NCBI GenBank assembly: GCA_024278755.1
Contig: JAJRSO010000014.1
Location: forward strand, 1 to 53,656
Length of the DNA: 53,656 bases
Source: Calditrichota bacterium
Lineage (GTDB): Bacteria; Calditrichota; Calditrichia; Calditrichales; Calditrichaceae
Reading direction: 5' to 3'
The stretch's first letter is position 1. Each line of letters starts with the position of its first letter. The notes below the pieces were generated by a model, which ran no database searches, was not told the origin of the DNA, and was given only the letters and a program-made list of their open reading frames with translations. Position numbers and translations under genes: made by a program. Shown here in pieces: positions 14,202 to 24,173 of this stretch.

Positions 14202-16772
14202 TTATTCTGCCTTTTTAAGATGCGCCTCTTTTAAATGTTCTTCGGTTACTCGCAGCACTTCTTTTTGCGTGGCGCCCAGAACATCGGCCTTGCCGTCGCC
14301 ATCCAGATCCACCGGTTTGATATAAGGCACTTCGGGGTCGATCAGAATCAATCCTTTTTTAACGCCTTCTTCGAATCCCTGAATGCTGTTGGGGGCAAAG
14401 GTTAGCAGGCGATCCTCAATCCGTCCGTTTTTGCCGTGACAGGATGTGCAGGTTCCGTTAGCGCCCAGCGCCTGATCCGCCGGCAGCACGCCGTGTGAAA
14501 TCTTAAAATAATGCGCGGCAATAAACAGAACAGGATCGGGATTTTTCTCGCCTTCTTTTTTCAGTATTTGTATCAAAGCCTTGCGCATTTTCTGAATATC
14601 ATCCAGCGTGCTGACTTCCGGTTTCATATCCGGATGCCCCATATAACCGGTTTTATCAAAAATTTTATCGCCGGTAATTAGTTGGGCGAAACGCTGTCCT
14701 TTTTTGGTAGAAAAATGCCCCGTAACCGCCGCATTGATTTCGCGGGGATAGACAACCTTTTTCAGGGTTTTATCGAACCAGGTCTGAATCGTAATAGGAT
14801 TGCCAACAGTAATCTGGTCGCCCCGGGAATTTTTGGAATAAAACATGGGCGGCGTCCATTCAAATCCCTTTTGACCGGTCATATGCTGATACATCTGACC
14901 AAACATATCGTCCCCTTTTTCGGGAAGCATATAAGCCACCGGCGCCTGAAAATCCATTGCACCGTCATCGGATTCTTTGTGGCCGACAAGCCAGCTCACA
15001 TTTCCCATTCCATAGCCGGGAATGGGGCCGTAGTACGGCGGCAGCAGGACATCCATCATCTGGCCCTTCGGGCCGGGAAAATGACGGTTGTCATAATTGT
15101 AGGTAAATCCAAGTGAATAATCGAAAGTTCGGAAGGTCCAGTAACGCACCTGCGGGACATGACAGGTTTCACAGGCGATTTTTGCCAAATGTGTTTTGGC
15201 CGCGCTTCCAAAAACCAGCGCATGTGCTTCTTCCGGATTAGGACCGTCTTCTTCCGACACATGACAATTATAGCAGTTATTGGGGGCCGGATTATTATCC
15301 AAATCATCCCGTACATGATTGCCGCTATCCGTACCTTCTGGAAAATTATGGTCCGGGCTCGTTACATAATCATCCTGCTCTATTCCGTCCGGTTTCCCTT
15401 TACTGTGGCAACTGGTACATTCCATTCCTGCGGTGGCATGCACATCGTAACCGGGGTCTTTTTCCGTTTTGGGATCCAAATTCCAGATCTCGCCCCGTTT
15501 GACGATATCGGCTTTCATACCCAATCCCCAGGTACGTACCTGAAAACTTCCGTTGATGGGATCTTTAACGCCCACATGGCACTGCGCGCAAACGCGGGTC
15601 CATTTATTCTCGCCGGATTCGTTATCCTTTGAACTGAGCAGAGGAACGTTTATTTCGTCATCTTCATTAAATTCACTGACCTGATAATAGACATTTGCTT
15701 TAAACGCATCTTTGTCTTTTTCGATTTTCACATAGGTGATCGGGTAACCGTCCTGATTATTATCCCAACCCATCAGGCCGCCCGACGGAGCCTGAGCAAA
15801 AAAATTACCGAGAAATTTTCGCTTGGCTTGCAAACCGGTGAACGGAGTGCCTTCGCCTTCCACGTAGGGCTGGCGTAAATAATTGCGCGAATCAGCCATG
15901 GGATTATCGAGATCACTGTAAAATTTACCCGCTTCGAATTTTGTTTTACTGCGCGACAAGGGATCGGAATAAGTAAAAGCCGATTCCCACCCTTCACCGG
16001 GATAAATCCCCATAGAAACAGCGATTGCTTTTCCATTTTCCCGTTTGGCAAAAATCCGCACTCTGGGATTGTATACGACCGGTTTAATTCCGTTTGCGTC
16101 TGTAAGCCGTTTGGTATCCGGATCCAAGTGGCAGGTAAAACAATCCGCCTCCAAAGAACCGGATTTGCGCCAGTCAAACTTATGCGGTTTAGCGACGGTA
16201 CCATCTTTGGTTTCATCGGATGAATAGGTATAGTAATCTCCGTCTAAAGCCGGCGCGTCATCGGGGTTAACCGAATCTAACCGTTTCCCGTTGCGATCGT
16301 ATTCATACGGACCGCCGCCCGGATGACAGGAAGCACAGGTGGCAACCTCTTCTGCTGTGCCAATATCGAAGGTTAATTGTGATGAATTCTTTTTTTGCGC
16401 CAACTGGCGGTAGGAAGGCGGTCACCAGGAGCCGTACTGACCGGCAGATAATAAGTGCTCGTAATGAAATTCTTTATGTTTTCTACCCCAGTCGTCGCCC
16501 ATGTCAGTGGCGCCTAACTGAAAATGATAGGCCGAAGTAATTACATCATAATCGTGGCAGGAACCACAGGTCTCTTTGGGACTGTATGGATTTCCTTTAT
16601 AATAGGAAATGCCGTTAATCACTAGTTTCTGACCCTGCGCCCTGGCCATTTCGATTACATTGTCTCCGTTTTTATCCAAAAGCGGAATGGCGGGATGCTC
16701 ATCTGCCAGAACCTGCGTAACCGGCAGCAGAAGGAGGGCAACCCCTAAGCAGAGAAGTTTATTTTTTTTCAT
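14202..16772 (-). CDS. Octaheme c-type cytochrome with an in-frame TGA (candidate selenoprotein)
   Basis: 856 codons if read through TGA at 16422-16424 (codon 117). ATG 16772 has GGGAG 5-6 nt upstream. Residues 1-24 are a signal peptide, so it acts in the periplasm or outside. Eight CxxCH heme sites are visible: CGSCH (69-73) before the TGA, then CASCH, CFTCH, CAQCH, CTSCH, CYNCH, CETCH and CTSCH after it. Calcium-loop-like DKNGDNVIE and DLDGDGKAD occur near the ends. The frame is identical on both sides: AGQYGSW-TGA-PPSYRQLAQ. The downstream part has no signal peptide and only a poor TTG start, so by itself it could not be matured as a c-type cytochrome. It is either a selenoprotein (see the hairpin) or a nonsense-interrupted gene. 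The electron partners are unknown. Confidence 0.8.
16398..16424 (-). promoter_or_regulatory. Possible bacterial SECIS-like hairpin just after the in-frame TGA
   Basis: On the coding strand TGA is followed by 12 nt and then CGCC-AGTT-GGCG, a 4-bp GC stem with a 4-nt loop whose second base is G. The loop begins 16 nt after the TGA. As I recall the bacterial SECIS consensus (short loop with G in its first two positions, stem of at least 4 bp, loop 16-37 nt after UGA), this meets the minimum on each count. A 4-bp hairpin is easily met by chance, so it supports recoding only weakly. Confidence 0.35.
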
Positions 16773-20389: not shown

Positions 20390-22189
20390 ATGAATTCAGC
20401 CAACTTATCTCGTAACGAAATAGACAACCGGTTTAAATGGAAACTCGAAGATATTTTTCCGGATGATGGCGCCTGGGAATCAGCCTATACCGATCTCAAA
20501 AATACCTTCCCGCAATTAAGCGAATTTCAGGGAAGACTAACGGAATCCGCCGAATCTCTGCTGGATTTTATTAAAAAAATGCAGCGCTCGGAAGAACTGT
20601 TGGGACGTTTATATGCATACGCCCACATGAAAAACGATCAGGATAAATCGGTGGCGGCTTATCAGGAAATGTACGAACGATGCAGCAGTTTGCTGGTGGA
20701 CTTTAACCAGTCGGTTTCGTTCTTCGAACCGGAGCTTTTACTTCTTAGTGAAGATAAACTAAAAACGTTTTTCAGCACAGAGCCAAAACTGGAACAGTAC
20801 CGCCACTTTTTGGATAATATTCTGCGCAGCCGGGAACATCTGCTTTCGGCTAAAGAAGAGCGCCTGCTGGCCCTCGCCGGTGAAGTGGTGCAGGCTCCGG
20901 CCGAAGTGTTTGGCGTCTGGGACAGCGCGGATATAATTTTCCCCGAAATGGAAGATGAAAACGGTAAACCAATCACCATTTCCAACGGGCTGTACGGCAA
21001 ATATCAGCAATCGGCCGACCGCCGTCTGCGCCGGGATTCCTACAAGGGATTGTATAAACCGTTTATCGAACACCGCAATATGCTGGCCGCCAACTATTCC
21101 GCCATTATTAAAAATCATATTTTTCAGAGCCGCGCCCGCCACTATGATTCCACACTCGAAGCGGCGCTGGATTCCAACAATATCCCGGTTTCGGTCTATC
21201 ATAATTTAATTAAAAGCACCAACGAAAATTTACAGCCGCTACACCGTTATAATAAACTTCGCAAACGCGTTTTAAATTTAGAAGACGGTGTGCACGATTA
21301 TGATTTACGCGCCCCTCTGTTTAGTACGGCGAACAAAGAATACTTCTGGGAAGAAGCCAAACAATTATGTGTAGAAGGCGCCGCGCCATTGGGTGAAGAC
21401 TACCAAAACCTGTTACGTAAAAGTTACTCGGAAGGTTGGATTGACGTTTATGAAAACAGGGGCAAACGGACCGGCGCTTATTCGTCCGGGACCTACGGCG
21501 TGCATCCCTATGTGTTGATGAATTACAACCGAACCCTCGGCGATGTGTTTACCCTAACCCACGAACTGGGCCACGCCCTGCACACCTGGTACACCATTAA
21601 CAACCAGCCTTTTGTATACGGTGATTACCCCATCTTTTTAGCGGAAGTGGCTTCCACTACCAACGAAGCCTTACTGCAACAGTATATGATTGACCATGCG
21701 GCGGATAAAACCGAAAAAATGTCCTATCTCAATGCTTATCTCGATAAATTTAGTCAAACCTTTTACCGTCAGGTTTTATTTGCCGAATTCGAATTGCAAA
21801 CCCACACATTAATCGAAAAAGGCGAAGCGCTCAGCGCTGATAAACTGGATGAACTGTTCGGGCAATTGTACCAAACCTACCACGGCCCCGCCTTTGTGTT
21901 AGACCGTGAAACCAAAGCGCTCTGGAGCCGCGTTCCACATTTTTACTACAATTATTATGTATTTCAGTACAGTACCAGCTTTACGGCCTCCTTTGCTTTG
22001 GCCGCCCGCATTTTAAAGGAAGGTAAAGCGGCGCAGGAAAACTATATTCAATTCTTAAAAAGCGGAAACAGCCGCTACGCCATCGACACCTTAAAAATCG
22101 CCGGCATCGATATGACAACGGAAGAACCCGTACAGACTGTCCTGGATTATATGAACAAACTGTTGGATGAACTGGAAGAGATGCTTTAA
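20390..22189 (+). CDS. pepF: Oligoendopeptidase F, cytosolic (M3B metallopeptidase)
   Basis: 599 aa, with GGGAG 5 nt before ATG. It is a zinc oligopeptidase that trims short peptides in the cytosol; there is no signal peptide. The zinc site is H391-E392-x-x-H395 in FTLTHELGHALHTWY, and the third ligand is in FLAEVASTTNEALL about 25 residues later. GAYSSGTYGVHPYVLMNYN just upstream of the active site and HFYYNYYVFQYSTSF near the C-terminus are M3B signatures. The length is normal for PepF (about 600). It is followed 82 nt later by a paralogue that is exported. Confidence 0.93.
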   Translation: MNSANLSRNEIDNRFKWKLEDIFPDDGAWESAYTDLKNTFPQLSEFQGRLTESAESLLDFIKKMQRSEELLGRLYAYAHMKNDQDKSVAAYQEMYERCSSLLVDFNQSVSFFEPELLLLSEDKLKTFFSTEPKLEQYRHFLDNILRSREHLLSAKEERLLALAGEVVQAPAEVFGVWDSADIIFPEMEDENGKPITISNGLYGKYQQSADRRLRRDSYKGLYKPFIEHRNMLAANYSAIIKNHIFQSRARHYDSTLEAALDSNNIPVSVYHNLIKSTNENLQPLHRYNKLRKRVLNLEDGVHDYDLRAPLFSTANKEYFWEEAKQLCVEGAAPLGEDYQNLLRKSYSEGWIDVYENRGKRTGAYSSGTYGVHPYVLMNYNRTLGDVFTLTHELGHALHTWYTINNQPFVYGDYPIFLAEVASTTNEALLQQYMIDHAADKTEKMSYLNAYLDKFSQTFYRQVLFAEFELQTHTLIEKGEALSADKLDELFGQLYQTYHGPAFVLDRETKALWSRVPHFYYNYYVFQYSTSFTASFALAARILKEGKAAQENYIQFLKSGNSRYAIDTLKIAGIDMTTEEPVQTVLDYMNKLLDELEEML

Positions 22190-22271: not shown

Positions 22272-24173
22272 ATGAAATTTATCATCGGAGTATTTATGTT
22301 ATCTTCTTTTCTGCTGCTCACCAATTGCAGCAAAGATCAGGGCGCGGCTGATTCGGGTAAAGCAGAAATTACCCGGGACAAAATCGACGCAAAATACAAA
22401 TGGAATCTGCAGGATATTTACAAAGATGAAGCCGCCTGGCGGGCTGCAAAAGCAGACGTTGAAAAGATGCTTCCTAAATTTAAAACATTTAAAGGTAAAT
22501 TGGGGCGTTCCGCCACGACCTTATATAATTGTTTGGACTTTAGCTCCAGAGTTACAAAAGAGTATATGCGCCTCGCATCGTATGCCGGCAAACTATCCGA
22601 TCAGGATACCCGTGAATCGGGCCCCATGGCCATGAATCAGGAAATCGCGCAGCTAGGGACAAAACTCAACGGCGCTTCTTCCTTTATCGATCCCGAAATC
22701 CTGTCCATTCCCAAATCGACCATTAAACGATTCCTGCGGCAGAAAAAAGAATTGCGGGTTTACAAACAGTATCTTGATAATATCCAGCGGATGCAGCCGC
22801 ACACCCGCTCCGCCGAAGTGGAAAACACCATCGCCGAAGCCGGCAGTATGAGCGACACCCCCTACGATATTTACGGCATCTTTAAAAATGCCGATATGCC
22901 GCGCCCGGAATTCACCTTAAAAGACGGCAAAACCATCCACTTAGACGATGCCGCTTATACGTTGTATCGTGCCGACGCCGACCGTGCTTTCCGTAAAAAA
23001 GTATTCGAAACCTTTTTTGGCGCCTATAAAAACTTTGAGCGTACTTTCGGAACCGAACTATACAGCCAGGTTAAAAAAGATATTTTCTATAAAAATGTAC
23101 GTAAATATAATTCTTCGCTGGAACGCGCTTTAAACGCCAACAATATTCCGGTTTCCGTTTATACGAATCTTATTAAAGGCGTGCATGACAATCTGCCAAC
23201 CCTGCACCGTTATCTGAATTTGCGTAAACGGATGCTGGGACTCAAAACCCTTCACTACTACGACATGTACCCGTCATTGGTAAAAAAAGCCGACATGAAC
23301 TATACCGTAGAAGAAGCGGAAGCGCTGATTATCAAAGCCCTTCATCCGCTGGGTGAAGAATACACCGCTACGCTCGACGAAGCGTTTAAGAACCGCTGGA
23401 TAGATATCTACCCCAATACCGGTAAACGTTCCGGCGCCTATTCTTCCGGCGGCGCATACGATGTGCATCCCTATATCCTGTTAAATTTCAACGGGAAATA
23501 CGACGACGTCAGCACTATGGCGCATGAGTTGGGCCACACAATGCACAGTTACAATTCCAACAAACACCAGGCCTTTGTAAATTCTCATTATCCCATTTTT
23601 CTGGCCGAAGTGGCTTCCATCACCAACGAAACCCTGCTGGCCGACTATGTATTACAAAATACTACCGATAAAGAGAAACGTCTGTCTCTTTTGGGAAACC
23701 TGCTGGAAACATTTCGCACCACTCTGTTCCGCCAGACCCAGTTTGCCGAATTTGAATTAAAGATCCACGAACTGGCCGAAAAAGGCGAAGCGCTAACCGG
23801 CGAGAAACTAAGCAATGTGTATCTTGATATTCTGCGTACATATTACGGAGCGGATGAAGGCGTTACGGAAATCGAAGATTTATACAGTATCGAATGGGCT
23901 TATATTCCTCATTTCTACTATAATTTTTATGTTTTTCAATACGCCACTTCGCTCTGTGCCGCCAATGCCGTAGCTAATAAAATTTTAGATGAAGGCCCGG
24001 AAATGAGTAAAAAGTATCTGAAAAACTTTTTAAGCGCCGGAAGCTCGGATTACGCCATCCCCATTTTAAAGAGCATCGGCGTGGATATGACCACCCAGGA
24101 GCCGTTTAATCTGGCCATGAAACGGATGAATAAGATCATGGATGAAATCGAAACACTATTAAACGAAAAATAA
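22272..24173 (+). CDS. Oligoendopeptidase F paralogue, predicted lipoprotein
   Basis: 633 aa, with GGAG 7 nt before ATG. It is a paralogue of the preceding peptidase, with the same M3B layout and zinc site (H418-E419-x-x-H422 in STMAHELGHTMHSY; FLAEVASITNETLL downstream). Unlike its neighbour it begins with a hydrophobic signal and lipobox (MLSSFLLLTNC), with the lipidated Cys at about residue 19, so it should act on peptides in the periplasm or on the outer membrane. The tandem arrangement implies duplication followed by relocation of one copy. A strong terminator follows the gene. Confidence 0.92.
   Translation: MKFIIGVFMLSSFLLLTNCSKDQGAADSGKAEITRDKIDAKYKWNLQDIYKDEAAWRAAKADVEKMLPKFKTFKGKLGRSATTLYNCLDFSSRVTKEYMRLASYAGKLSDQDTRESGPMAMNQEIAQLGTKLNGASSFIDPEILSIPKSTIKRFLRQKKELRVYKQYLDNIQRMQPHTRSAEVENTIAEAGSMSDTPYDIYGIFKNADMPRPEFTLKDGKTIHLDDAAYTLYRADADRAFRKKVFETFFGAYKNFERTFGTELYSQVKKDIFYKNVRKYNSSLERALNANNIPVSVYTNLIKGVHDNLPTLHRYLNLRKRMLGLKTLHYYDMYPSLVKKADMNYTVEEAEALIIKALHPLGEEYTATLDEAFKNRWIDIYPNTGKRSGAYSSGGAYDVHPYILLNFNGKYDDVSTMAHELGHTMHSYNSNKHQAFVNSHYPIFLAEVASITNETLLADYVLQNTTDKEKRLSLLGNLLETFRTTLFRQTQFAEFELKIHELAEKGEALTGEKLSNVYLDILRTYYGADEGVTEIEDLYSIEWAYIPHFYYNFYVFQYATSLCAANAVANKILDEGPEMSKKYLKNFLSAGSSDYAIPILKSIGVDMTTQEPFNLAMKRMNKIMDEIETLLNEK

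Follow-up and report, generated by a model that had tools for sequence, protein, structure and literature searches.

A predicted selenocysteine-containing octaheme cytochrome c of Calditrichota distantly related to octaheme tetrathionate reductase

The window, which is the whole stretch of 53,656 nucleotides of Calditrichota DNA that was analysed, contains a gene for a c-type cytochrome crossed by one in-frame TGA codon. The locus raised the question of whether this TGA codon ends a damaged gene, is read as a standard amino acid, or encodes selenocysteine (Sec), and of what a Sec residue would contribute to a multiheme protein. A preliminary description of the sequence had proposed Sec in place of a Cys with a ligand or redox function close to the heme. 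The explanation that was judged highly probable as a whole is that the gene encodes a secreted oxidoreductase resembling octaheme tetrathionate reductase (OTR), with UGA117 decoded as Sec, catalysis at heme 2, and a sulfur, nitrogen or arsenic oxyanion as the likely compound reduced.

Reading frame and heme sites

The gene was read on the minus strand as one unshifted frame encoding 856 residues and crossed by only one TGA codon, at 16422-16424, as the preliminary description had reported. The TGA codon was located between heme site 1 and heme sites 2–8. The eight CxxCH motifs (residues 69, 146, 211, 395, 452, 500, 534, and 775) were accordingly divided into one before the TGA codon, CGSCH, and seven after it, in agreement with the earlier count. 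The start codon was an ATG at 16772, preceded by GGGAGAAAGT (minus strand), and a ribosome-binding site rich in purines, as well as a start resembling a signal peptide, was found ahead of the first part only. The sole available start of the part behind the TGA codon was a TTG (16403) without a signal peptide, which was also as described. The features of the gene, in the order of transcription, were as follows.

14202..16772, minus strand: whole gene of the Sec-containing octaheme c-type cytochrome, 856 residues (frame reading; orthologues of 66–91% identity with the same single TGA)
16704..16772, minus strand: predicted signal peptide, residues 1–23, ending in ...VLA (by inspection: charged start, hydrophobic stretch, AxA-like end)
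16554..16568, minus strand: heme 1, CGSCH, residues 69–73 (aligned to OTR C22-H26)
16422..16424, minus strand: in-frame TGA, assigned to selenocysteine, residue 117 (TGA or Cys codon at this column across the Sec/Cys family)
16398..16409, minus strand: SECIS-like hairpin CGCC-AGTT-GGCG, loop 16405-16402 (codons 122–125 invariant in Sec forms; rebuilt elsewhere)
16323..16337, minus strand: heme 2, CASCH, residues 146–150, presumed active-site heme (aligned to OTR C74-H78; missing, like Sec/Cys and Lys425, from 12 paralogues)
16128..16142, minus strand: heme 3, CFTCH, residues 211–215 (motif and OTR alignment)
15576..15590, minus strand: heme 4, CAQCH, residues 395–399 (motif and OTR alignment)
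15498..15500, minus strand: Lys425, aligned with OTR Lys153, presumed axial ligand of heme 2 (profile alignments and conservation)
15405..15419, minus strand: heme 5, CTSCH, residues 452–456 (motif and OTR alignment)
15261..15275, minus strand: heme 6, CYNCH, residues 500–504 (motif and OTR alignment)
15159..15173, minus strand: heme 7, CETCH, residues 534–538 (motif and OTR alignment)
14436..14450, minus strand: heme 8, CTSCH, residues 775–779 (motif and OTR alignment)
14202-14204, minus strand: TAA stop codon

Conservation and decoding of the TGA codon

The codon of residue 117 was TGA in all close Calditrichota orthologues (66–91% identity), and the same TGA was present in 54 distinct Sec site sequences from Calditrichota, Aquificota, Desulfobacterota, and other groups. 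In Aquificota, three types of Sec paralogue were found, all of them in one family, Desulfurobacteriaceae (17 of 136 genomes). Family matches occurred in 78 of 395 genomes of Desulfobacterota, a phylum name that was inferred, and a TGA form was also found in a metagenome-assembled genome labelled Deferribacteres (L058). Homologues from Acidobacteriota, Planctomycetota, Ignavibacteria, and Desulfobacterota carried Cys at the residue 117 column in an unguided alignment, within the context GNW-C-SPAPLYRQLA. The proposal that homologues would have Sec or Cys at this position was borne out, as were the other computational checks suggested in the preliminary description, and none of the refuting conditions named there arose, although some distant paralogues had D, S, I, V, A, N or L. 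Of 83 non-redundant proteins, 44 had Sec, 22 had Cys, and 17 had another residue, and their tree implied at least seven changes among these three states.

Some members differed in architecture. Desulfurobacteriaceae had up to three Sec paralogues, of about 810, 1330, and 1500 residues (L048, L049, and L075-L104), several of which ended in a C-terminal sorting-like signal of the GGGGCSIAP type. In the acidobacterial Cys forms L059-L061, heme 1 was a CX4CH motif (CGAKGCH or CGASGCH), not CX2CH.

The CGCC-AGTT-GGCG hairpin that had been noticed 12 nt past the TGA codon was located at 16409-16398, behind a 12-nt spacer. The published model of bacterial SECIS geometry (PMC13188914) comprises a loop of 3–9 nt, an upper stem of 4–16 bp, a G in loop position 1 or 2, and a UGA-to-loop distance of 16–37 nt. 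The hairpin agreed with this geometry through its 4-nt loop AGUU with G in the second position, its 4-bp stem, and its UGA-to-loop distance of 16 nt. Its stability was unremarkable (MFE −5.7 kcal/mol, z = −0.14). Because the energy alone was ordinary, the evidence for the hairpin is its conservation, which was visible at the codon level. Codons 122–125 (CGC CAG TTG GCG) were invariant in all 13 Sec forms that were first aligned, whereas none of the 48 other degenerate codon columns with an invariant amino acid was identical in these forms. The chance that four identical columns among the 53 would fall at random on exactly the hairpin codons was about 3 in a million. The Cys forms were variable at these codons.

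The same hairpin was found in most of the 54 Sec sites and was rebuilt from other bases in the remainder. In the FPQLA clade, where the arginine is replaced by proline, the hairpin was re-formed in a shifted register as CCGC-AGTTG-GCGG. Locus L131, with a different local protein sequence, had a new perfect stem at a fitting distance (TCTGGC-CGGGTT-GCCAGA), which was read from the sequence and differs from the minimum-energy fold. The pair outside the hairpin core was often C-G or U-A, with C-C as common as C-G.

These data bear on the possibility that the gene is a pseudogene or contains a sequencing error, so that the TGA codon is a nonsense mutation or a misread base. Lone in-frame stops in draft genomes are frequently of this kind, and the ordinary folding energy of the hairpin would fit such an origin. 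However, the same TGA codon was present in independent assemblies of several phyla with the coding sequence conserved on both sides, and the silent-site invariance was confined to the hairpin, which leaves this explanation scarcely credible.

The machinery for Sec insertion that the preliminary description had suggested searching for was present in the genome of the window. SelB and selA matched with 338 bits (cut-off 242) and 502 bits (cut-off 268), respectively, and selD and a tRNA-Sec with the anticodon TCA (UCA) were also found. SelB was above the cut-off in 14 of the 18 other genomes tested that contain family members, and gave no match in the TGA-bearing draft genome G004, the assembly of which is 89% complete. 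Most Cys-bearing genomes also contained selB; therefore, the Cys form is not merely a product of missing machinery. A second selD of the window genome (L042, contig C53, 18790-19725) was itself a TGA-containing selenoprotein gene (CAG-U-ASK) on the same contig as the tRNA-Sec, and its hairpin also had an AGUU loop.

The TGA codon is recoded as Trp in some lineages and stop codon readthrough exists, so that an alternative code or leaky readthrough would place Trp or another standard amino acid at residue 117. This was considered very improbable, since a phytoene synthase gene located upstream in the window stops at TGA, the homologues have Cys and not Trp at this column, and the Sec machinery of the genome is complete. 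By comparative evidence, TGA 16422-16424 is a genuine Sec codon, and the recurrence of the TGA codon together with the hairpin across phyla is far above chance in the sequences compared. UGA117 would be decoded as Sec by SelB and tRNA-Sec(UCA), guided by the hairpin 12 nt downstream.

Similarity to octaheme tetrathionate reductase and the heme 2 site

The window protein scored 32.1 bits against the OTR family model TIGR04315, below its curated cut-off of 375. A global hhalign comparison with genuine TIGR04315 members gave a probability of 99.9% and an E value of 3.2e-35. In the profile alignment, all eight heme sites were collinear with those of OTR (PDB code 1SP3), and most distal histidines and Lys153, corresponding to Lys425, were in register. 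An AlphaFold model built from 83 sequences had a pLDDT of 85 and a pTM of 0.90, while a model from 20 sequences was unusable (pLDDT 43). The sole significant PDB fold match of the former was 1SP3, with an E value of 2e-4, a probability of 1.00, and a TM-score of only 0.30. Judged by sequence, the window protein is a distant OTR relative, within an OTR-like superfamily wider than TIGR04315.

Both families have eight collinear hemes, an aligned lysine (Lys153 and Lys425), and a Sec or Cys residue between hemes 1 and 2. However, the window protein is about twice as long, its family has the Sec motif [WLYF]U(P/S/T)...[YF]RQLA where TIGR04315 has NNFU, and the hairpin loops are AGTT and AGGT, respectively. 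TIGR04315 members of Desulfobacterota shared with the window family a TGA codon in the heme 1–2 segment. Genuine TIGR04315 members whose N[NS][FY]-U motif contains an in-frame TGA at the position taken by Cys in other members (Cys64 in OTR) were found at loci L213, L217, L218, L223, L224, L227, L229, L231, L234, L236-L238, and L240, and most of these genes had a strong downstream hairpin, such as CTGGTGC-AGGT-GCACCAG.

Mowat et al. (2004) are said to have described Lys153 of OTR as an unusual ligand of the active-site heme 2, with Cys64 in the same active site. By counting along the 1SP3 sequence, the Cys of NNFC is residue 64. Sec117 and Cys64 were located in the same heme 1–2 segment and in different alignment columns. 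Sec117 may be the equivalent of Cys64.

Residue 117 varied together with heme 2. Lys425 was present in 88 of 88 covered alignment rows having Sec/Cys and heme 2, and Arg160 in 90 of 90 such rows. In the 12 rows without a heme 2 motif, Sec/Cys was absent from every one and Lys425 was found in none, whereas heme 2 was retained in 13 paralogue rows in which residue 117 was D, S, I, V or A. Heme 2 was lost in two independent lineages only, and the association with the loss of Sec/Cys was not significant after phylogeny was taken into account. The pattern is suggestive of a tendency of Sec/Cys117, Lys425, and heme 2 to be retained or lost jointly.

The protein would be exported to the periplasm or the extracellular space and would carry eight attached hemes, with electrons passing along the heme chain from the other seven hemes to the catalytic heme 2. 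Lys425 would provide one axial ligand of heme 2, and Sec117 would be placed on the open side. In this pocket, Sec117 would most likely serve as a nucleophile or as a proton or electron relay. A selenol would be superior there to the thiol of Cys in both roles for the reduction of a small oxyanion. By analogy, the enzyme would most likely reduce a small oxyanion of sulfur, nitrogen or arsenic. Candidate substrates are sulfur oxyanions or nitrite/hydroxylamine from the analogy with OTR, and an arsenic compound from the analogy with a sister clade.

The role suggested earlier, that of a heme ligand or a nearby redox partner, was in this way narrowed to a predicted active-site residue at heme 2. 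An assignment of Sec117 as the missing eighth heme ligand, derived from the count of conserved histidines, was set aside as less likely once Lys425 had been found to correspond to OTR Lys153. Direct axial ligation by Sec117, most likely of heme 2, would fit the absence of Sec/Cys whenever heme 2 is lost, and has a precedent in the cysteine-ligated hemes of TsdA/SoxA (PMC4423706). It was nevertheless considered unlikely because Lys425, invariant with heme 2 and aligned with OTR Lys153, would already serve as a ligand, and residue 26 (His or Cys) could supply the remaining one.

Residue 26 also distinguished a clade, with both Sec and Cys forms at residue 117, that has Cys26. The genes of this clade were often found beside an ArsR-type regulator, an ACR3 arsenite exporter (462 bits; cut-off 283), and an ArsC-like reductase, with an ArsP_1 permease, thioredoxin, and an ArsG/CcdA-like membrane protein as further neighbours. 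Such loci in arsenic clusters were L059, L060, L177, L179, L182, L194, L196, and L199-L201. A possible role of the Cys26 clade in arsenic chemistry looks undescribed. The Calditrichota copies, including that of the window, and most Aquificota copies had His26 and no arsenic-type neighbours; the genes adjoining the window copy were uninformative and none was arsenic-related. Therefore, the arsenic link is not transferable to the window copy without testing.

These neighbours are relevant to a role of Sec117 outside catalysis at heme 2, as a redox site or a metal(loid)-binding site, for example through a selenenylsulfide bond to Cys26 in the clade of the arsenic clusters, or as an arsenic-binding site. 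Selenols bind arsenic strongly, and the Cys26 clade lies near ArsR, ACR3, ArsC, and ArsP-like genes. However, the window protein has His26 and no adjoining arsenic genes, and this role appeared improbable, if slightly less so than direct ligation. A pocket residue taking part in catalysis at heme 2 was preferred. A bolder and rather improbable proposal is that the family represents a new type of heme enzyme, with a selenol(ate) acting at the iron of a lysine-ligated c-heme, either as ligand or as substrate-trapping nucleophile. The latter would be the selenium equivalent of the cysteine S-thiosulfonate chemistry known from TsdA, and one branch of the family would have specialised in arsenic chemistry.

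Other multiheme selenoproteins and gene surroundings

Multiheme selenoprotein cytochromes are already known from ExtKL, TIGR04315, and MccSep. ExtKL (NF040886, Geobacter GSU2937-2936), a selenoprotein known since 2007 (PMC1914089), is like the window protein a multiheme c-type cytochrome with an in-frame UGA (PMC1914089, PMC5877670, PMC13188914). However, it has five hemes in an N-terminal domain, and its Sec is located between this domain and an unrelated C-terminal part. The NF040886 profile matched neither the window protein at E values up to 0.1 nor any of 20 family members at 0.001. MccSep, according to PDB entry names, is a solved multiheme cytochrome c selenoprotein with U325 (PDB code 9WT8 and related entries). 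Unlike the window protein, it has 450 residues, and the similarity was confined to a run of heme motifs (chain 48–178), with its Sec beyond this run. MccSep was not recovered by the OTR profile, and no paper on it was found in the literature search. The GSU2204 family (NF041027) shares with the window protein the combination of CXXCH and Sec and is listed as an MtrB/PioB-type outer-membrane barrel (PMC13188914); NF041027 matched neither the window protein nor family members.

TIGR04315 is itself listed among selenoproteins through the entry WP_331457571.1, marked 'GenBank annotated' (PMC13188914). This entry was taken as a true TIGR04315 member because such members with a TGA codon exist, although it could in principle belong to the window family. 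A literature search covering Sec octaheme families, MccSep, and octaheme cytochromes in arsenic clusters gave no description of the window family, which lies outside the NCBIfam models and is apparently widespread and undescribed.

By splitting the annotation into a C-terminal piece without a signal peptide and an N-terminal piece with one heme, the stop codon has apparently caused a large selenoprotein family to escape notice. The family extends the use of Sec in multiheme cytochromes to Calditrichota and Aquificota. Since the same probable catalytic site occurs in a Sec and a Cys version that can be compared side by side, the contribution of selenium at a heme active site is directly testable, and the test is within reach because cultured relatives are likely among Desulfurobacteriaceae.

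Elsewhere in the window, two tandem adjacent genes resembling M3-type oligopeptidases (HELGH motif) were located on the plus strand at 20390-22189 and 22272-24173, the second of which had a lipoprotein-like start.
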